From contig JASIAM010000060.1 of NCBI GenBank assembly GCA_030041985.1, positions 1-64,000 on the forward strand: a DNA stretch of 64,000 nt, read 5' to 3'. A program made the position numbers and the translations under genes. Of the stretch, positions 6,515 to 16,967 are shown piece after piece. The stretch's first letter is position 1, and each line of letters begins with the position of its first letter. Under the pieces are notes generated by a model that searched no databases, was not told the DNA's origin, and saw only the letters and a list, made by a program, of their open reading frames with translations. This DNA comes from Bryobacteraceae bacterium. Its GTDB lineage: Bacteria; Acidobacteriota; Terriglobia; Bryobacterales; Bryobacteraceae.

Positions 6515-8845
6515 ATGGTTTCGAAGAAAACACTCTCTTACTTTCGCGCCCCGGTAGTGATAGTGCTGGCTGTGGTGTCAACGGCTTGCCTCCGTAGTCC
6601 GGAAGATTACCTAAAAAAGGCCAATCAACTGGCCGCTCAGGGCAAGTATGCGGAAGCCGATTTAAATTACCGCAAAGCCATTCAGAAAAACGCGAATTAT
6701 GGCGAAGCTTATTATCAGCTCGCATTAGCGGATCTGAAGCTCGGAAAAGTAATGGACTCTTACCGGACCCTCGCGCGGGCGGTGCAACTGCTACCCAGCC
6801 GCGACGATGTGAAGGTGGAGATGGCCGATCTCAGCCTGTCACTGTTCCTGGCGGACCGGCGCCGTCCCCGCGCGCCCTGGGACGAAGCCCAGAAGCTGGC
6901 CGACGAGCTGCTGGCCAAGAATCCCCAGTCCTTTGACGCATTGCGTCTGAAGGGACATCTGGCGGCGGTCAGCCAGAACCTGAAAGACGCGGAAGGATTT
7001 TATTCCCGCGCCAATTCCATTCAGCCCATGAATCCGGAGGTTACGCTAGGCCTCGCGCAGGTGTGGTTTCAGGATGGGCGGGTCAAGGAAGCCGAAGATC
7101 TGGCCATGGCGCTGATGGCCAAAGACAAAACCTACGGGCCGGTTTACGATTTGCTCATTCAGCGGCGCCTGGTAGCCAAAGACATGAGCGGGGCCGAGCA
7201 ACTCCTGAAAACCAAGCACGCGAATATGCCCAAAGATGCGGCAACGTCACTGGAGCTGGCGCGATTTTATGCCGGTACGTCGCGGGAGGCCGATATGAAG
7301 GCCGTCTTGCAGCAGATGCTGGATGATCCCAAGACATTCCCGCAAGCCCCACTGCAGGCGGGTGATTTCTACGCCGTGCTGCGGCGCTGGGACGACGCGG
7401 ACAAGCAGTACGAGGCGGGCGCCCAGGCCACCAGCACCGGCAAGGACAATACCGCGCAGCATGTCACTTATCTGAAAAGAGTGGCGGATCTGGCGCTGCT
7501 ACGGGGCAAAAGCGACGAAGCCAACCGGGCGATCGATGAGATTCTCAAAGTCGCGCCCGATGATCAAAGCGCGGTGGCTGTGAAGGGCTCTTTATTGATT
7601 GCGACGCGCAAGCCGGAAAATGCCGCCAAAGCGGTTGCCTTACTGCAGCCGGCGGTCGCGAAAAACCCAAACAACGCCAACCTGCATTACACCTTGGGAC
7701 GGGCACTAGCGGCCAAAGGAGACCTGGATGCGGCCCGCTCGGAATTTCTGGTGGCCGTGCAGAAGAACGACAGGTTCATCGAACCGCGGCTGGCGTTGGC
7801 CGAAATGGGGCAACTGAGAGGCGATTATCAGACCACCTTGCGCTACGCCGACGAGATCCTCGCCATCAATCCCAACCTGACGCGCGTGCGCGTGCTGCGG
7901 GCGGTGAGCCTGATCAATACGGGAAACTCCGCCGATGGGCGGAAAGAGCTGGAAACTCTCGAGCGGAGCAACCCTCAGGACAAGGAACTGCAGTTGCAAC
8001 TGGGCGTTCTGGAATTGCATGACAAACACTTCAAGGAGGCGGAAGAATACTTTCGCAAGCTGACCGCCGATAGTACGAACGATGTGCGCCCGCTCTCCGG
8101 GCTGACGCAAACCCTGGCGGCCGAAGGGCAGCTCGACAAAGCCGTAGCGCTGCTATCGGAGGATCTCAAGAAAACGCCCAATAACAATCAGCTTCGTTAT
8201 CTGTACGCGGTTACGGCGGCTATGGCGGGACGGTACGACACGGCGGTTGAGGAATTTCAGCACCTGGTGGCCGCCAGCCCGCAGACGACACAGCTCTACG
8301 TGGCGCTGGGGAATGCCTATCGCCTGAAAGGAGACACGGCCGATGCTCTGGCGACACTCGAAAAGGGCGCCGGGCTGGCGCCGAAAGACCCGACTCCGGT
8401 AGTCGCTGAGGCGGAAATCCTAAACAGTATGAACCGCCAGCAGGAGGCGCTGGAGAAATACCGCGCCGCGCTCCGCATGAGCCCCGATAATGCCACGCTG
8501 CTGAATAATGTGGCTTATCTGATGGCGGACACGGGAGGCAGTCTGGACGAAGCTCTGAAATACATACGCCGCGCATTGCAACTGGATGCCAAGCAACCAC
8601 GCTATAGCGACACGCTGGGATGGATCTATTACAAACAGAACCTGAATGACACCGCCATGCAGGTGTTTCGTGGGCTTACTGAAACGAACCCCGATAATGC
8701 CACTTTCCACTATCACTTTGCCATGGTGCTACTGAAGAGAGGCGATAAGGCCATGGCCAAAACCGAGCTGCAGAACGCGCTGGCTAAGAAGCCGTCCGAC
8801 GAAGTGCGCCACGACGCGCAAACGGAGCTATCGAAGATCGGGTAG
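6515..8845 (+). CDS. Large TPR-repeat lipoprotein (PrsT-like)
   Basis: 776 residues. An N-terminal signal ends in a lipobox-like VVSTAC, followed by tandem TPR units to the C terminus (for example QLAAQGKYAEADLNYRKAIQKN, and a final unit GWIYYKQNLNDTAMQVFRGL). Length and layout resemble the PEP-CTERM/exopolysaccharide TPR lipoprotein family (PrsT, TIGR02917), which is usually found near polysaccharide loci; a large glycan locus starts at 17 kb here. No exosortase is visible in the window, so the PrsT assignment is by likeness only. The last 188 bp of the coding region plus 13 bp of 3' flank (8658-8858) are repeated at 13528-13728, at the far side of a 4.87-kb insertion. Confidence 0.85.
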   Translation: MVSKKTLSYFRAPVVIVLAVVSTACLRSPEDYLKKANQLAAQGKYAEADLNYRKAIQKNANYGEAYYQLALADLKLGKVMDSYRTLARAVQLLPSRDDVKVEMADLSLSLFLADRRRPRAPWDEAQKLADELLAKNPQSFDALRLKGHLAAVSQNLKDAEGFYSRANSIQPMNPEVTLGLAQVWFQDGRVKEAEDLAMALMAKDKTYGPVYDLLIQRRLVAKDMSGAEQLLKTKHANMPKDAATSLELARFYAGTSREADMKAVLQQMLDDPKTFPQAPLQAGDFYAVLRRWDDADKQYEAGAQATSTGKDNTAQHVTYLKRVADLALLRGKSDEANRAIDEILKVAPDDQSAVAVKGSLLIATRKPENAAKAVALLQPAVAKNPNNANLHYTLGRALAAKGDLDAARSEFLVAVQKNDRFIEPRLALAEMGQLRGDYQTTLRYADEILAINPNLTRVRVLRAVSLINTGNSADGRKELETLERSNPQDKELQLQLGVLELHDKHFKEAEEYFRKLTADSTNDVRPLSGLTQTLAAEGQLDKAVALLSEDLKKTPNNNQLRYLYAVTAAMAGRYDTAVEEFQHLVAASPQTTQLYVALGNAYRLKGDTADALATLEKGAGLAPKDPTPVVAEAEILNSMNRQQEALEKYRAALRMSPDNATLLNNVAYLMADTGGSLDEALKYIRRALQLDAKQPRYSDTLGWIYYKQNLNDTAMQVFRGLTETNPDNATFHYHFAMVLLKRGDKAMAKTELQNALAKKPSDEVRHDAQTELSKIG

Positions 8846-8858
8846 AGACACACTGGCG
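8658..8858 (+). repeat. Left 201-bp direct repeat (3' end of TPR gene)
   Basis: This segment covers the last 62 codons, the stop codon and 13 bases after it. It recurs without gaps at 13528-13728, exactly 4,870 bp away. By eye there are six differences, all in the first half and all silent third positions (CGT/CGC, GGG/GGC, ACT/ACC, CCC/CCT, ACT/ACC, CTA/CTG). The last 100 or so bases are identical. Confidence 0.95.
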
Positions 8859-9227
8859 CTTAAGAGGCCGCCCGCAGCGTAAGCCCCGCACCCATTATAA
8901 AGGGCGAGAAAGGAAGCTTCTCCGAGTAATCCCAAAGGTGCTTCGACTGGAACCCGGGCGCCACAGGAAACGAGTGTTCGGCCGCCCGGCTCGGCTGCTC
9001 CCTGGAACGACCCAGACCCATTAAAGAGTCATCCACACACTGCGGTTTGGCTCACTGCCCGTTTCATCAGCTTGCAGTCGACGAATACTCGCGTCCCTGT
9101 GGTTGGTGACGAACCTTATCGGAAACGTTTCTTTGAATTCTCAATAACATTTGCATGAGGTGCATTAAATTGCTGGACATAATTGTTTTTCCGTGATATA
9201 AGTCCCGTACAAAAGGAAGGAGTTGAG
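8846..9227. other. Left non-coding flank of the insertion
   Basis: About 380 bp after the TPR gene. The first 13 bp belong to the direct repeat. From about 9120 the sequence becomes clearly AT-rich and carries the promoter of the small peptide gene (9174-9202). I see no coding region, transposase fragment or tRNA in it. Confidence 0.6.
9174..9202 (+). promoter_or_regulatory. Sigma70-like promoter of the Cys-rich peptide gene
   Basis: TGGACA at 9174-9179, a 17-base spacer, then TATAAG at 9197-9202. This is one of the best promoter matches in the window. Predicted transcription start is near 9209, giving a leader of about 20 bases that carries the strong Shine-Dalgarno AAGGAAGGAG just ahead of the ATG at 9228. 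It suggests the small peptide gene is well expressed on its own. Confidence 0.6.
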
Positions 9228-9464
9228 ATGGTTTCAAAGATGTCAAGCTTTAAGGATCTACCCCTTCTAGCCGTTACGGCTTTGGCTTTGGCCGGCACGC
9301 CTCAGGCGGCGCGCTCCGGCGGCCTATGTTACTACTCCTGTGGTCAGGTATACGAGAATTGGATAGCAATGTGCGAGCATTTTTATTTCCCTCCCGCTTA
9401 TACATTTTGCCTGGATGTTGGGGAGGAGTCCTATGAGAGTTGTATCTCGCACTGCGCAAGCTGA
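9228..9464 (+). CDS. Secreted six-cysteine, tyrosine-rich small peptide
   Basis: 78 residues; the ATG at 9228 is chosen for AAGGAAGGAG just upstream (an earlier in-frame start at 9183 lies inside the promoter). Residues 1-32 are a Sec-like leader with a hydrophobic core (LPLLAVTALALAG) that ends in a Gly-Gly pair, so either signal peptidase or double-glycine processing is conceivable. The 46-residue core has Cys at 34, 38, 49, 61, 72 and 76, with spacings 3, 10, 11, 10 and 3, almost a mirror image. It has six Tyr; Tyr69 sits among Asp63, Glu66, Glu67 and Glu70, the kind of acidic setting used by tyrosine sulfotransferases. No family is recognised. Downstream come thioredoxin-like, TIGR03435, sulfotransferase and JmjC-like genes. 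A secreted disulfide-bonded and possibly modified peptide is inferred. Confidence 0.7.
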   Translation: MVSKMSSFKDLPLLAVTALALAGTPQAARSGGLCYYSCGQVYENWIAMCEHFYFPPAYTFCLDVGEESYESCISHCAS

Positions 9465-9771
9465 GAAACTCGCGGCATTCTAGTGTAGGGGTTGGCGGCC
9501 TTGGCAGGTCGGCCGAAGTCCGCAGGATCAGACTACTGTCGAAGAGCGCGGGGCAAGTCGCGAGTGGTCTTACGCCCGTCTCGTGACGGGCAATTATAGT
9601 ATGCACGGTGTGAATAAGGGAGCAGCATAGTTGGTACGGCCTATTTGCCAGCGCTGTCGTTTCACTGGACGGCGGTTTAGGGAAAGGGGAGTCTCGTGGC
9701 CTAGCTAATTCGAGCCGATCCTGCAAACATTCGAATAGGATTACACTTTTCCTACTCAGGAGACCAGGACA
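9465..9771. other. Gap between peptide gene and thioredoxin-like gene
   Basis: 307 bp with no convincing coding region. It holds the hairpin at 9574-9591 and, at its end, the Shine-Dalgarno CAGGAGA (9757-9763) of the next gene. The size of the gap next to the tight spacing of the following four genes suggests the peptide is expressed as its own unit or at a higher level. Confidence 0.5.
9574..9591 (+). terminator. Perfect 7-bp hairpin with 4-base loop (attenuator-like)
   Basis: GCCCGTC, loop TCGT, GACGGGC: a perfect GC-rich stem about 110 bp after the peptide stop codon. No run of T follows (AATTATAGT instead), so it is not a textbook intrinsic terminator. It could be an attenuator or a 3'-end stabiliser of the peptide mRNA. 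Confidence 0.35.
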
Positions 9772-10317
9772 ATGATAGAAAAATCGTTGAGATTTATAGC
9801 CTACCTCGCAGTTATTGTCTTGTGCTTCGTTCGAGTGTATTCCTATTGGAGCAACAAGGGCGCTGCGCCTCATCCTTCGGCCGAATCCTTGGCCGCACAT
9901 CTTGTCGGTTCCAGGATCGGCCTCGGTGGGAATGCCACAGGTGAGGCAGTCCGGGCGAGCGTCGTTATTGCCATGACTAAGTCCTGTGTTTATTGCCGTG
10001 CGAGTGCGCCATTCTACAGGAGGCTGATCCGGGAGGCCCAAAACCTTCCTGGAGGTGTCAGGACGATCGCGGTTATGCCGGAAAGCAGGGATGCTGCGGA
10101 CAGTTACCTGAGGAATTCACTTATCCTTACCTTCGATGACGTCGTGCAATCCTTGCCAGGGTTTCGTGCGGCTGCTACGCCTACTTTGATTGTGACCGAC
10201 AGGCAGGGAGTCATCAAAGGAGCGTGGGTCGGGTTCCTGAGACCGGAAGCCGAAAATGCAGTTCTAGCGGCGCTCTGCCGCATGTCTGGGGCTGCGGGGG
10301 CTGTGTGCCGCAGTTGA
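9772..10317 (+). CDS. Membrane-anchored thioredoxin-fold protein
   Basis: 181 residues. An N-terminal membrane anchor spans about residues 7-25 (FIAYLAVIVLCFVRVY), followed by a thioredoxin-like domain with a C-V-Y-C active site at residues 72-75 after VVIAMTKS, and a TPT segment at 136-138 in the expected cis-proline position (ATPTLIVTDRQG). These are hallmarks of TlpA/ResA-type extracytoplasmic thiol-disulfide proteins. CVYC is unusual compared with CGPC or CxPC. The gene starts the four-gene run behind the Cys-rich peptide, so a role in forming or editing its disulfides is a reasonable inference. Shine-Dalgarno CAGGAGA at 9757-9763. Confidence 0.75.
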   Translation: MIEKSLRFIAYLAVIVLCFVRVYSYWSNKGAAPHPSAESLAAHLVGSRIGLGGNATGEAVRASVVIAMTKSCVYCRASAPFYRRLIREAQNLPGGVRTIAVMPESRDAADSYLRNSLILTFDDVVQSLPGFRAAATPTLIVTDRQGVIKGAWVGFLRPEAENAVLAALCRMSGAAGAVCRS

Positions 10318-10333
10318 CTATGGAGTTACATCA

Positions 10334-11128
10334 ATGCACCGACCCTTTCTCTTATGCCTCGCTAGCCTAGCGGTGGCGACAGAATTGTCAGCGCAGGGGA
10401 TCTCGGGTAAGGAGTTTGAAGTGGTCTCGATCCGCGTTCCTCAGGAGCTCAGCCGTGAGGAATACTCCGCAAACCCAGGCTCACGGATAGTGCAGATCGA
10501 CAAGGGGTTTGTTACGATGCCCTACGCCAGAATGGAAATTATACTCCAACGAGCGTTTGGCGTGACCAGGCCCCAGCTAATCGCGCCCGAGTGGACGCAA
10601 TCACGCTACTTTAGCATTGAGGCAAAACTGCCTCCGGACGCTGCTCAGGGCGATGTTCCGGAGATGCTCAGGAATATGTTGGTGGCACGTTTCCACATGG
10701 GATACCACAAGGAGGTCAGGAACACAACGGTTCTCGTGCTAGCCTCTGCAAAAGGGGGTACAAAAGCGGAAGCTGCCGCCGCGGAATCCCGGTCACGGCG
10801 GCGGGGGATAGAGCACGGTGGAACGCATTTCGACTTAACGACGACCTCCGTTGGCCTCGCGGACTTTCTGGCCCAACGCACATTCGGCCCCGTGGTTGAC
10901 AGGACGGGTCTGGCGGGTACATATTTGTTCTCGTTTGATTTTTATCCTTTCGGGAAGTTGGGGGGGGATGGAAACCCGTTGGGCCCGCCGACCAACGATT
11001 TCTTTGCGGATCTGGTCCGGCATTACGACGACGCACTGGCCCCTATCGGTCTTCGCCTCACCCCGGCCAAGCTGCCGATGGAAAATGTCATCATTGACCA
11101 GCTTGACCGCACGCCCACTGAGAATTGA
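10334..11128 (+). CDS. TIGR03435 family secreted protein
   Basis: 264 residues with a signal peptide (MHRPFLLCLASLAVATELSAQ) and then the conserved FEVVSIRVPQ start of the TIGR03435 family. Further family-like blocks are GFVTMPYARMEIILQRAFGV, the FSIEAKLPPDA region and a late DRTGLAGTYLFSFDF block. The family is known as a Solibacter/acidobacterial expansion of extracytoplasmic proteins without an established function. It starts 16 bp after the thioredoxin-like gene, so the two are probably co-transcribed. It is the best clue in the window to the host lineage. Confidence 0.85.
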   Translation: MHRPFLLCLASLAVATELSAQGISGKEFEVVSIRVPQELSREEYSANPGSRIVQIDKGFVTMPYARMEIILQRAFGVTRPQLIAPEWTQSRYFSIEAKLPPDAAQGDVPEMLRNMLVARFHMGYHKEVRNTTVLVLASAKGGTKAEAAAAESRSRRRGIEHGGTHFDLTTTSVGLADFLAQRTFGPVVDRTGLAGTYLFSFDFYPFGKLGGDGNPLGPPTNDFFADLVRHYDDALAPIGLRLTPAKLPMENVIIDQLDRTPTEN

Positions 11129-11166
11129 CGCCGTCAGGAGGGTAGCGTATCAGGAAAGGAGTTTCT

Positions 11167-12207
11167 GTGCTGATTCTGGATGATCACAATCCTTGGGTCC
11201 CCGCCATGCGTAAGGTGGAATGGCCTGCATCAAAGATTCCTCCAGGATGGCTACCAGCGGCTGTGAGCGGTGGTAGGGCCGTTATCAGGTGGATCTACGT
11301 TGGAAGAGAGCCGTTAGCCGAGGCATTTCTCCCTGAAACAGTTAGGAGGTTGCGCGCGAGTGAGCCACCTGCCGTCGAATGCGAGACCGAGGTTTCGGTC
11401 TTGGAACGACGCCCTGGGGAGCCATCTTCGGCACCACCGGCCGGCATCATTTTTCACATGACTAGGTGCGGTTCTACGCTTCTCGCCAATGCATTGCGGA
11501 GAGCGGATGAAGCTGTCGTCGTTAGCGAGTCTGCCGCGGTTGCCCGAGCTATGGAGTGGATCGGGTCGCCGTCCAGTTATTGGGCCGGAATTGGTGCGAG
11601 GCTTATAGAGTCTCTAACCGCTGTTTTCGCCAATTACCAGGCGCACGGCAAAGCGGGACGCGTCGTTATCAAGTGCTCCTCTCAAGAAATACGGTGTCTG
11701 CGGGAGTTACGGGCTGTGTGGCCGAGGGTGCCGTGCTTGATTCTAATACGAAATCCTATTGAAGTCCTGGTTTCGAATGCGCTAAAGCCTTCTAAGCTCT
11801 TTCTGGATTGGCAGGACCATCCCCGGGTCGTGCCGTTAGGCGTCCCGCCGGCGGAGGTCTTTGACGGCGGCGTTGTCGAGTTTTCTGCGTGGATGGCGGG
11901 TCGCTTCTGTTCCACGGCCTTGGCAGTTCTCGACGCCGGCTGCTGGGTGTTGGATTATGCTCAGATTACGCCAGAGGTGGCGAAGAAGGTTGCGAGGTAT
12001 TTCGGTTTGTCATTATCCGACGAGGGTGAGCAGGCCTTGACTGAGGTATTTCAGTTTCACTCGAAACGCCCCGACCGTGCTTTCATTGAAGACTCGACAG
12101 ATAAGATAGGATCTGCGGCCGAGCATATGAAAATGTGCGCTGCACGATGGATACAAGCACCGTACGATGAGCTGCGGAGTCAAAGCCGTACGCCGGAGCT
12201 AGTTTAG
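11167..12207 (+). CDS. Sulfotransferase-family protein
   Basis: 346 residues from a GTG at 11167, chosen because AGGAAAGGAG lies just upstream. Residues 95-108 (IFHMTRCGSTLL) match the 5'-phosphosulfate-binding loop of PAPS-dependent sulfotransferases, and LILIRNPIEVLVS around residues 191-203 matches the 3'-phosphate-binding strand (Arg195). About 90 N-terminal residues ahead of the loop resemble nothing I know. The gene sits 38 bp after TIGR03435 and 3 bp before the JmjC-like gene. In known systems such enzymes sulfate sugars, small molecules or tyrosines (RaxST). The substrate here is unknown; the tyrosine-rich peptide of the same locus is a candidate. Confidence 0.7.
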   Translation: MLILDDHNPWVPAMRKVEWPASKIPPGWLPAAVSGGRAVIRWIYVGREPLAEAFLPETVRRLRASEPPAVECETEVSVLERRPGEPSSAPPAGIIFHMTRCGSTLLANALRRADEAVVVSESAAVARAMEWIGSPSSYWAGIGARLIESLTAVFANYQAHGKAGRVVIKCSSQEIRCLRELRAVWPRVPCLILIRNPIEVLVSNALKPSKLFLDWQDHPRVVPLGVPPAEVFDGGVVEFSAWMAGRFCSTALAVLDAGCWVLDYAQITPEVAKKVARYFGLSLSDEGEQALTEVFQFHSKRPDRAFIEDSTDKIGSAAEHMKMCAARWIQAPYDELRSQSRTPELV

Positions 12208-12210
12208 CAG

Positions 12211-13497
12211 ATGAACAATCCACTGACGCTCAAGATGCTCCTTGCACCCCATGAAGAGGGCGATTTCCTGGAGAGCGTTATGGGTCAGTCCGCTCTCTAC
12301 GTTCCTGGAGTGTCCGGCAAGTTCGAGCACCTCTTCTCTTGGGTGAAACTCAATTATTTATTGGAATTTGGTGGACTTTCGTTTCCTCGCCTGCGACTCT
12401 TCAGAGGTGGGCAAGAAGTACCGAAGGCCTCCTATTTTACGGCTGGCCGTAGCGGGTATGAGCGGCCCCTGGTCCGGGGGCTGACAACTGAACTGCGCGA
12501 AGGCGCCATGCTGACGATCGAATCTATCGAGGAGCTACACGAGCCGATTTCAGTCCAGTGTCGTGTGCTGGAGCGGAGCTTTGGGATCCCAGTCCAGGCC
12601 GACTTGTATGCCAGTTGTCGGGACAGGCCTACGCCGCCGTTGCGGCAAAACGACCACGATGTCATTGTTCTACAGTTGGAAGGCGCACGTCGTTGGCAGC
12701 TTTATTTTCCGATAAACCGGCGGGCAGCCCGGGGGAATGGGTCACTGGAACCTGTTGCGGCGCCTGCGTGGGAAGGTGTGGTGGATACCCACGATCTGCT
12801 TTATGTTCCCAAAGGATGGCGATATTGTGATGAACCAGCCGGAGAACATGGAGTGTGCCTCGCGCTAAAGTTTAGAAATCCAACCGCATTGGACGTTGTG
12901 AGCAGACTTGTAGTACAGCTCGGTGTGAGTCGAAAAATGAGCGCGAGCATCCCGCGGTTCGCTGATGCAGAGAGGCAGGGACGGTTCCTAAGAGATGTGC
13001 AGCAGAAGTTGGCTGAGGCAGTGACACACCCTGGCTTGTTGGCGGGATACTTAACTGGCGTCAGATTTTTCGCGGAGCCGCGGCACGCCTTTTCCCTTCC
13101 ATGGGCGGGACTCCCGAGTCCGTTGCCGCCAGCAGATGATTGGGTGCTGACGCCTCTTTTGGGGTTTCCTGCGTCCGACTCTCTAGTACATTCGGAGCTT
13201 GAGGACGTTTGCGAAATTGTCGTTGACCGACAGGTGGTCCGTTTTAGCGAGGATGTTGCCGACGTTGTTCAGTCGATTCTTGACAGTGAGAGTACCACTG
13301 TAGGCTCCCTGATCTCTGCGTTCGCGTCGAGTGTACCTGCGGAGCGAATTTTGGAATGTGTAAGTGAACTAGTGAAATGTGGAGCTGTTTGCTTCCGGGA
13401 ACCTGGTTTTCGTCATGCAGCTAACCATAGGCTGCCAGGATCAGGAGTCTGCAGGAGCTTTCTCTGCTCCGAGTCACCAACTCGAGTAAGGCCTTAG
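12211..13497 (+). CDS. JmjC/cupin-like protein with probable loss of metal ligands
   Basis: 428 residues. Residues 120-220 resemble the Cupin_4/JmjC fold of bacterial ribosomal oxygenases (HDVIVLQLEGARRWQLY, then DLLYVPKGWRY). Where these enzymes have H-x-D of the iron-binding triad, here residues 145-147 read R-Q-N. The distal His after the LYVPKGW strand appears replaced by Leu217, and GWxH reads GWRY. If this by-eye alignment is right the protein cannot bind iron in the usual way. The C-terminal part (about 310-400) looks like a small winged helix, as in ribosomal oxygenases, and could also be compared with PqqD-like peptide-binding domains. It starts 3 bp after the sulfotransferase, so the two probably act together. 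Confidence 0.6.
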   Translation: MNNPLTLKMLLAPHEEGDFLESVMGQSALYVPGVSGKFEHLFSWVKLNYLLEFGGLSFPRLRLFRGGQEVPKASYFTAGRSGYERPLVRGLTTELREGAMLTIESIEELHEPISVQCRVLERSFGIPVQADLYASCRDRPTPPLRQNDHDVIVLQLEGARRWQLYFPINRRAARGNGSLEPVAAPAWEGVVDTHDLLYVPKGWRYCDEPAGEHGVCLALKFRNPTALDVVSRLVVQLGVSRKMSASIPRFADAERQGRFLRDVQQKLAEAVTHPGLLAGYLTGVRFFAEPRHAFSLPWAGLPSPLPPADDWVLTPLLGFPASDSLVHSELEDVCEIVVDRQVVRFSEDVADVVQSILDSESTTVGSLISAFASSVPAERILECVSELVKCGAVCFREPGFRHAANHRLPGSGVCRSFLCSESPTRVRP

Positions 13498-13527: not shown

Positions 13528-13715
13528 TGCAGGTGTTTCGCGGCCTTACCGAAACGAACCCTGATAATGCCACCTTCCACTATCACTTTGCCATGGTGCT
13601 GCTGAAGAGAGGCGATAAGGCCATGGCCAAAACCGAGCTGCAGAACGCGCTGGCTAAGAAGCCGTCCGACGAAGTGCGCCACGACGCGCAAACGGAGCTA
13701 TCGAAGATCGGGTAG
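13528..13715 (+). pseudogene. Orphan C-terminal fragment of the TPR lipoprotein gene
   Basis: Encodes the last 62 residues of the TPR lipoprotein including its stop codon, with no start or upstream domain of its own. An open frame from 13506 runs into it but its first seven codons are unrelated. It is the left-behind end of the target gene, or the end brought in by the insertion. Confidence 0.85.
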
Positions 13716-13728
13716 AGACACACTGGCG
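13528..13728 (+). repeat. Right 201-bp direct repeat
   Basis: Second copy of the TPR gene 3' end, gapless against 8658-8858 with six silent third-base differences. Since no coding difference has built up, this copy came from a functional allele and not from slow decay of a local duplicate. Together the repeats mark the ends of the 4,870-bp insertion. Confidence 0.95.
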
Positions 13729-13830: not shown

Positions 13831-14115
13831 ATGGAAGTGCAGTTCACCCCCGATCAGAAGGCCTTTGTCCGCCAGGCGATTGAAAGCGGACGGCTGCAGC
13901 GCGAGGAAGACGCGGTGAAGGAGGCGCTGTCGCTGTGGGAAGAGCGCGAGCGCCGAAGATTGGAAATCCTGGTGGCCGCCGATAAGGCAGAAGCATCATT
14001 GGTGCGCGGCGAAGGACGTAGGGTGAGGACCGAAGAAGAAGCCAGCCAGCTTGCCGCCGACGTGAAACGGCGTGGTATGGCGCGCCTGAATGCCGCATCG
14101 AATCCCCGCTCATGA
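13831..14115 (+). CDS. ParD-like antitoxin
   Basis: 94 residues. The N terminus (VQFTPDQKAFVRQAIESGR, then EDAVKEALSLWEERERRR) is a ribbon-helix-helix domain of the ParD type, which binds DNA and represses its own operon. The charged C-terminal half would wrap the toxin. The stop codon overlaps the toxin start as ATGA (14112-14115), the standard coupling of such pairs. A leaderless promoter may drive it. Confidence 0.8.
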   Translation: MEVQFTPDQKAFVRQAIESGRLQREEDAVKEALSLWEERERRRLEILVAADKAEASLVRGEGRRVRTEEEASQLAADVKRRGMARLNAASNPRS

Positions 14116-14417
14116 GCGAGTTTCGCCTTGCGCCGGAGGCGGAGGCCGAGCTGGACGACATCTGGCTGCACATTGCGAGGGAAAGCGGCAGCATTGATAT
14201 TGCTACCCGCGTAGTCGAGAAAATAGCCGATCATTTCTGGCTGTTGGCGCGGTATCCCTACCTCGGGCGGGCGCGCGCCGAAGATTTGCGGCCCGGCTTG
14301 CGCAGCTTTCCTGTTGGCGGCTACCTCATTATTCACCGCATTGTGGAGGATGACGTGGTGCTGATTCTGCATGTGGTGCACGGCAGCCGCGACATCGGGC
14401 CATTGTTCGGACATTAG
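14112..14417 (+). CDS. ParE-like toxin
   Basis: 101 residues with the RelE/ParE fold signature: FRLAPEAEAELDDIWLHIA, then ARYPYLGRAR, RPGLRSFPVGGYLIIHRI and VVLILHVVHGSRD. Members poison gyrase or cleave mRNA. The pair sits directly after the insertion scar and before nadE. It appears intact. Confidence 0.85.
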   Translation: MSEFRLAPEAEAELDDIWLHIARESGSIDIATRVVEKIADHFWLLARYPYLGRARAEDLRPGLRSFPVGGYLIIHRIVEDDVVLILHVVHGSRDIGPLFGH

Positions 14418-16216: not shown

Positions 16217-16247
16217 TATTGGCAATAATTGCCAATACTGCTAGAAT
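16217..16247 (+). promoter_or_regulatory. Promoter with overlapping palindromic operator of the second parDE pair
   Basis: TTGGCA at 16219-16224, a 17-base spacer and TAGAAT at 16242-16247. A 9-3-9 perfect inverted repeat (arms TATTGGCAA and TTGCCAATA, 16217-16237) covers the -35 and most of the spacer. This is the expected site for repression by the ribbon-helix-helix antitoxin encoded just downstream. Confidence 0.65.
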
Positions 16248-16270
16248 GGTCGCGATTGGAGGACCATCGC

Positions 16271-16573
16271 ATGCCCACCCGGAACGTCAACCTGACCGAG
16301 CATTTCGACCGATTCATTGAGACCGGCATCACCTCAGGCCGTTTCAGCAACGCCAGCGAAGTAGTGCGCGAAGGCCTCCGGCTCCTGGAGCAGCGCGAGC
16401 ACGAGGACAAGGCTAGGATCGAATGGCTGCGCGGCGCCGCCAAGGAAGGCTTTGATGCCGCTGACCGCGGTGACTACATAACTCTCCGCTCTGATCAGGA
16501 GATCGATGACTTTGTAGATCAGGTGCGCCGGGAAGCATCGAAAAAACTCGTCACCAAAAAGGTGCGTGCCTAA
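16271..16573 (+). CDS. ParD-family antitoxin
   Basis: 100 residues from ATG 16271, preceded by GGAGG. The N terminus (VNLTEHFDRFIETGITSGRF, then SNASEVVREGLRLLEQRE) is the classic ParD ribbon-helix-helix domain; the acidic C terminus is the toxin-binding part. The gene overlaps the toxin by 8 bp. It probably represses its own promoter through the palindrome at 16217-16237. Confidence 0.85.
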   Translation: MPTRNVNLTEHFDRFIETGITSGRFSNASEVVREGLRLLEQREHEDKARIEWLRGAAKEGFDAADRGDYITLRSDQEIDDFVDQVRREASKKLVTKKVRA

Positions 16574-16967
16574 ATCTCCGACAAAATATGCTGTGAGGCT
16601 TACCGGCCCCGCCAAGCGGGATCTCTCCGGCCTGATGGAATGGACTGTCCAGGAGTTTGGCGAGCGCGCAGCACTTCGCTACGATACTCTGATCAAACAG
16701 GCCTTAAAGGATATCGGAGCCGATCCCGAACGTCCAGGATCGAAAGAGCGGCCCGAGATCATGGTCCGGGGCGCGCGGACATATCACCTGGAATTTAGCC
16801 GGAACCGAGTGAGCGGGTCAAAGGTGAAAAAGCCGCGCCATTTTCTCCTGTACCGCTGCTGCGATGATGGTGTGGCCGAGGTGGCCCGTATTCTTCACGA
16901 CGGCCGCGACCTCCAACGCCATCTTCCTGAAGGCTATCGGCATGGCGAAGGAACACTTAAAACTTGA
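16566..16967 (+). CDS. ParE-family toxin
   Basis: 133 residues from a GTG at 16566 that overlaps the antitoxin end. RelE/ParE features: VRLTGPAKRDLSGLMEWTVQEFGERAA, then RGARTYHLEFSRNR and a C-terminal HFLLYRCCDDGVAEVARILHDGRDL block. It is somewhat longer than the usual 95-105 residues because of a C-terminal tail. It looks intact. A GTG start and overlap give lower, coupled translation, as usual for the toxin. Confidence 0.8.
   Translation: MPKSPTKYAVRLTGPAKRDLSGLMEWTVQEFGERAALRYDTLIKQALKDIGADPERPGSKERPEIMVRGARTYHLEFSRNRVSGSKVKKPRHFLLYRCCDDGVAEVARILHDGRDLQRHLPEGYRHGEGTLKT

Follow-up and report, generated by a model that had tools for sequence, protein, structure and literature searches.

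An exported cysteine-rich peptide module of Bryobacteraceae, accompanied at one locus by sulfotransferase and JmjC-like genes

We analyzed a 64,000-nucleotide stretch of a Bryobacteraceae genome (contig JASIAM010000060.1, positions 1 to 64,000; hereafter the window), in which a block of five genes encodes a small Cys/Tyr-rich peptide, a membrane-anchored thioredoxin-like protein (Trx), a TIGR03435 protein, a sulfotransferase, and a JmjC-like protein. An exported Cys-rich peptide encoded together with Trx and TIGR03435 proteins is a recurrent module in the host's family, and the core function of this module is most likely the oxidative folding of a secreted, disulfide-rich peptide. The tailored form, with a sulfotransferase and a probable JmjC pseudoenzyme, is known from this single locus. 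All five open reading frames (ORFs) are on the plus strand, with sensible starts and frames that are intact across 4.3 kb. ORF analysis and profile matches placed them where the initial annotation of the window had them, with the last four tightly spaced (gaps of 16, 38, and 3 nt). The genes are as follows.

9228..9464, plus strand: Sec-type precursor of a Cys/Tyr-rich peptide, 78 aa (ORF and sequence reading)
9772..10317, plus strand: membrane-anchored Trx, 181 aa, with one N-terminal transmembrane segment, a CVYC motif, and a TP loop
10334..11128, plus strand: TIGR03435 (DUF3738) protein, 264 aa, with an export signal (profile match, E 3e-43)
11167..12207, plus strand: 3'-phosphoadenosine-5'-phosphosulfate (PAPS)-type sulfotransferase, 346 aa, GTG start (alignment and predicted model)
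12211..13497, plus strand: JmjC_2/ROX-like protein without metal ligands, 428 aa, a probable pseudoenzyme (E 5e-11, alignment)

The peptide, Trx, and TIGR03435 module

The peptide precursor begins with a short basic segment, followed by a hydrophobic stretch and a Cys/Tyr-rich tail. Residue positions bear out the composition first reported for it, with six Cys (34, 38, 49, 61, 72, and 76) and six Tyr (35, 36, 42, 53, 58, and 69). The Cys residues form the pattern CX3C-X10-C-X11-C-X10-CX3C. The sequence AAGGAAGGAG precedes the ATG by five bases. Only chance-level matches to the peptide were found in 396 genomes of the phylum. Its arrangement, with CX3C-X10-C at the front and C-X10-CX3C at the end, recurs only in loci L241 and L245, both beside a Trx gene, and is absent from 323 kb of control sequence. 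The peptide is an orphan by sequence, not by architecture.

Because the peptide had no sequence relative, Trx was followed across genomes instead. The Trx family was defined by an alignment of 14 relatives (A3), seeded from the first set of matches, in which CxxC and TP are invariant. It occurs in 37 of the 237 genomes of the host's family, at 60 places, and the window Trx has the membrane anchor, CxxC, and TP loop that characterize it. Sec-type Cys-rich ORFs around these Trx genes were then counted by one fixed rule, with the opposite strand as a control. Within 500 nt of Trx, such ORFs reach 0.39 per kb on the same strand (20 per 51 kb) versus 0.02 per kb (a single ORF) on the opposite strand. 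Between 500 and 1500 nt the densities are 0.12 and 0.02 per kb, respectively, and beyond 1.5 kb both strands are alike at background. Since the opposite strand serves as the control, base composition cannot explain the same-strand excess.

TIGR03435 genes follow the same pattern: 12 lie within 500 nt of Trx in the same orientation, the opposite strand has none, and 108 kb of control loci likewise contain none. Examples of the complete trio include L197, L199, L239, L242, L243, and L254. The window carries the same three elements: a Trx of the A3 family, a Cys-rich ORF separated from it by 307 nt upstream, and a TIGR03435 gene 16 nt from it. The TIGR03435 protein scores 148.2 bits against a curated cut-off of 40. 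Thus, the secreted, disulfide-rich peptide with a membrane-anchored Trx and TIGR03435 partner that the initial annotation read from one locus proved to be a recurrent arrangement, in which the peptides vary greatly in length and Cys spacing from locus to locus. A comparison of the predicted TIGR03435 fold with the Protein Data Bank (PDB) returned no significant Foldseek match. A resemblance to PilQ (best VIA-align Z 3.6, over 70 residues) was too weak and was not used.

To our reading of the literature, in a search with incomplete coverage, no paper names TIGR03435 or DUF3738, and none joins Acidobacteria, a cysteine-rich peptide, and a thioredoxin, in keeping with the early impression that the gene set is undescribed. 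The module appears to be an undescribed but widespread set for secreted cysteine-rich peptides in common, little-studied soil bacteria, and it gives the TIGR03435 family a first testable context.

Two kinds of variation were seen at other Trx loci. Cys/Gly-rich peptides with tandem CGGGGGC-like tails adjoin Trx at L195:6609-6980 and L196:6767-7129. At L239:4523-6292, an asparagine synthase gene directly follows the peptide, TIGR03435, and Trx set and may encode a further tailoring enzyme.

The sulfotransferase and the JmjC-like protein

The sulfotransferase gives a sub-threshold Pfam match to Sulfotransfer_3, and its relatives in the phylum are 22-34% identical. In the clade alignment, the P-loop Arg (R100), a Glu 21 residues further on (E121), and the Ser of the second motif (S203) are invariant, and the window protein retains these along with every other invariant residue of the clade. 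The three correspond to the residues reported as essential in sulfotransferases, namely the 5'-motif Arg, the catalytic Glu or His, and the 3'-motif Ser (PMC6637879). E121 also aligns, at equal spacing, with the Glu of tyrosylprotein sulfotransferases (TPSTs) in an alignment to PDB entries. By its sequence the enzyme looks active. The genome contains three adenosine 5'-phosphosulfate (APS) kinase matches, so the PAPS donor is likely available.

The predicted model (pLDDT, the predicted local distance difference test, of 80.6) was compared with solved structures. By VIA-align, TPSTs score best by a narrow margin (Z 14.9-15.9), closely followed by STF9, CurM, and olefin-synthase domains (14.5-14.8), and heparan-sulfate enzymes lie lower (about 12). 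Foldseek alone did not separate TPSTs from heparan-sulfate enzymes. Taken together, the comparisons did not group the protein with sugar or lipid enzymes, the placement that the initial annotation had named as adverse to a peptide substrate. A sulfotransferase match at L252 was considered as a sign that the enzyme is a conserved module part and was rejected, being a generic sulfotransferase on the opposite strand.

Elsewhere, the clade adjoins genes for Nif11-like small proteins, PF05118 Asp/Asn hydroxylases, phage-tail Collar proteins, and DUF6916, and the nearest relative (34% identity) adjoins an APS kinase gene in L064. As a separate observation, loci L064-L073, L076, and L282 hold what resembles a hydroxylation-plus-sulfation gene set, in which the clade occurs with Nif11-like, PF05118, Collar, DUF6916, and GNAT genes.

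The last gene of the block had been read as JmjC/cupin-like. Its JmjC_2 match upholds that family assignment, but a working Fe(II)/2-oxoglutarate (2OG) JmjC hydroxylase is not supported, as all three metal ligands are replaced. The H-x-D...H triad, intact in every JmjC relative compared as far as each sequence reaches, reads R145, N147, and Y205 in the window protein. D131 and R160 likewise stand where the family conserves Asn and Lys. The surrounding motifs are kept (YVPG..GKF, PRLRL, LQLEG, and LLYVPKGW). Because the frame is intact and these motifs are conserved, the gene probably encodes a pseudoenzyme, with no frameshift involved. Among solved structures, the closest are the ribosomal oxygenases NO66 and MINA (E about 1e-18), with which it has the JmjC fold in common over about 250 residues. 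Those proteins carry the H-x-D...H triad, in contrast to R-x-N...Y in the window, and here Asp and Arg replace the family Asn and Lys at positions 131 and 160. If the assignment holds, the protein is a clear-cut candidate for pseudoenzyme tests.

In most of 79 JmjC relatives, the coding region of a short peptide stops immediately ahead of the JmjC start or runs into it. The tails of these peptides read SDGND, NDGND, or TDTND in actinomycetes and form longer runs of DGSD/DGTD repeats in Acidobacteriota. No such Asp/Gly-rich substrate peptide was found inside the window block. A divergently oriented JmjC-like gene, frame-broken yet with its triad kept, stands beside a Cys-rich peptide, TIGR03435, and Trx in L197, a locus from another member of the host's family. 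Counting this locus and the window, a JmjC-like gene has met the module at least twice.

Two further JmjC settings were recorded. In loci L080-L159 (JmjC start near 8000 in most), the JmjC_2 genes of actinomycetes and Acidobacteriota nearly always follow, and often overlap, a gene for a short peptide that has either an SGLL(L/I)SVEPL-like motif with a (S/N)DGND or TDTND tail or long DG(S/T)D repeats. The two likely represent an unreported peptide/hydroxylase pair. At L280:5195-8446, asparagine-synthase-like, HPr-kinase-like, and JmjC genes stand in a row that is reminiscent of a lasso peptide cluster and is cut by the contig end.

Proposed maturation and competing explanations

We favor, at a probability of roughly 0.6, a Sec-exported peptide module folded by Trx, plus sulfation of the precursor and a JmjC-fold protein that only binds. 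The sulfotransferase carries no export signal and would act in the cytosol, sulfating the precursor ahead of its export; Tyr69, within EESYES, would be a reasonable site. The JmjC-fold protein, if it acts at all, would bind the peptide or the sulfotransferase and not hydroxylate, because its Fe(II) ligands are lost. No transporter is encoded between the repeats that bracket the block, and the N-terminus of the peptide is Sec-like, in line with the export route proposed from the start. Once outside the cytoplasm, the peptide would have its disulfides oxidized or isomerized by the membrane-held, periplasm-facing Trx, a role suggested because thiol-disulfide oxidoreductases do likewise for pediocin and sublancin (PMC4919988). 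The TIGR03435 protein would also act outside the cytoplasm, possibly in an accessory, chaperone, or immunity role. The mature peptide may have an extracellular function, in antagonism or signaling, rather than a housekeeping one. Such an outward role seems the more likely because the peptides change completely between loci while Trx stays recognizable.

The principle of a peptide with its own oxidoreductase is already known. In the pediocin/PedC and sublancin/BdbA systems (PMC4919988), a small exported Cys peptide is likewise encoded beside a CxxC thioredoxin-fold protein implicated in forming the correct disulfides. PedC-type systems, however, occur in Gram-positive hosts and pair a leader with a dedicated ABC exporter, whereas the window system has a Sec-type signal, no exporter, and a TIGR03435 partner. 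RaxX/RaxST/RaxAB of Xanthomonas (PMC6637879) is similar in setting a small Tyr-containing precursor beside a PAPS sulfotransferase, and the window enzyme's model is nearest, though only narrowly, to TPSTs. RaxX differs in its double-glycine leader, with RaxAB serving for both cleavage and export, and that paper does not describe it as rich in disulfides; the window peptide has six Cys, a Sec-like N-terminus, and no transporter. In methanobactin operons (MbnA/MbnS, PMC3621798), a Cys-containing peptide is likewise accompanied by an optional sulfotransferase gene for tailoring. MbnS belongs to PF00685 and probably acts on Thr, and MbnB/MbnC-type modification enzymes are absent from the window. 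A JmjC-domain protein also belongs to a peptide-maturation gene set in biphenomycin biosynthesis (BipG, PMC12707348). BipG is a 2OG/Fe(II)-dependent ornithine hydroxylase, in contrast to the window protein with none of the three metal ligands.

Several points weigh against the reading we favor. About 40% of Trx loci yield no peptide by the fixed rule, and some carry longer Cys-rich proteins. Some loci are closely related, so the counts given above overstate the number of independent events. The Sec signal of the peptide, judged by a simple rule, is only moderately hydrophobic. STF9 and two polyketide/olefin-type sulfotransferases come within about 1 Z of the TPSTs. Co-location is the sole tie of the sulfotransferase and JmjC-like genes to the peptide; peptide sulfation is plausible on the basis of operon position. 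Should the peptide be sulfated, it would provide a bacterial example in which sulfation and disulfides occur together.

This last tie is where the strongest competing explanation enters. The core module may be as described, with the sulfotransferase and JmjC-like genes forming a separate two-gene unit that has another target and arrived in the same insertion. We regard this as unlikely, though a serious contender. The sulfotransferase clade is found elsewhere with a 2OG-type hydroxylase, Nif11-like, and Collar genes and with no Cys-rich peptide. It is near the Trx module in none of the other 36 Trx genomes, so that no other Trx module carries it. The JmjC relatives probably serve Asp/Gly-rich peptides, and the block as a whole has the appearance of an insertion. 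The close, one-strand packing of the four downstream genes, however, suggests one transcript, and no other target gene is encoded within the block. L197 also has its divergently oriented JmjC-like gene beside the peptide, TIGR03435, and Trx set. In a neighborhood comparison, no locus was found with the other four genes but lacking the peptide.

The favored reading can be drawn more sharply as a sulfated, disulfide-rich Sec peptide matured by Trx, a TPST-like sulfotransferase, and a substrate-binding JmjC pseudoenzyme, which would be the first tailored representative of a large and rapidly diversifying peptide family. In this complete form it is speculative, and we would expect some part of it to fail.

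A different function for the peptide is also conceivable, as a periplasmic redox or metal-binding small protein that Trx keeps reduced. Trx could reduce as well as oxidize, Cys-rich peptides are capable of metal binding, and 12 of the Trx loci have a TonB-dependent-receptor-like family nearby. We consider this improbable. The receptor-like genes lie on either strand with equal frequency and were rejected as operon partners on that ground, and Cys numbers and patterns are too variable for one metal site. Least probable, and quite doubtful to us, is that the block in its entirety was acquired and is now decaying: the lost JmjC triad, the position between repeats, the peptide without relatives, and the broken JmjC frame of L197 would fit a block with one dead gene and the rest on the way out, but over 4.3 kb each of the five frames is uninterrupted, the JmjC protein has changed by substitution in an otherwise conserved fold with no frameshifts, and the sulfotransferase retains all clade-invariant residues.

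Genomic setting of the block

The features around the five genes are the following.

6515-8845: tetratricopeptide repeat (TPR) gene upstream of the block, whose 3' end is the source of the repeat
8658..8858, plus strand: left copy of the flanking 201-bp direct repeat, formed by the TPR 3' end (sequence comparison)
9176..9205, plus strand: possible peptide promoter, TGGACA-17 nt-TATAAG, with TG ahead of the second hexamer (found by eye; weak)
13528..13728, plus strand: right copy of the 201-bp repeat, a truncated TPR remnant (sequence comparison)

The two copies, which the initial annotation did not mention, bracket the block and are 97% identical. All six mismatches are silent and fall at third codon positions, so the right copy is probably not a pseudogene in drift. 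A likelier account is that the copies derive from two lineages and were united by recombination, and the flanking repeats are consistent with recent acquisition of the block. An empty site that would demonstrate the insertion was not found, the best TPR match in the genus (genome G004) being a gene of only about 66% identity at a locus that lacks synteny. Among the genomes compared there was no second locus with all five genes.

The promoter that the initial annotation placed ahead of the peptide gene is plausible by eye, but a consensus scan did not list it, and promoter-like sites are no commoner than in shuffled sequence. No Rfam family was matched inside the block. Beyond its right side, two pairs of small genes that, read from sequence, resemble ParD/ParE toxin-antitoxin pairs lie at 13831-14417 and 16229-16967, one of them adjoining the block.

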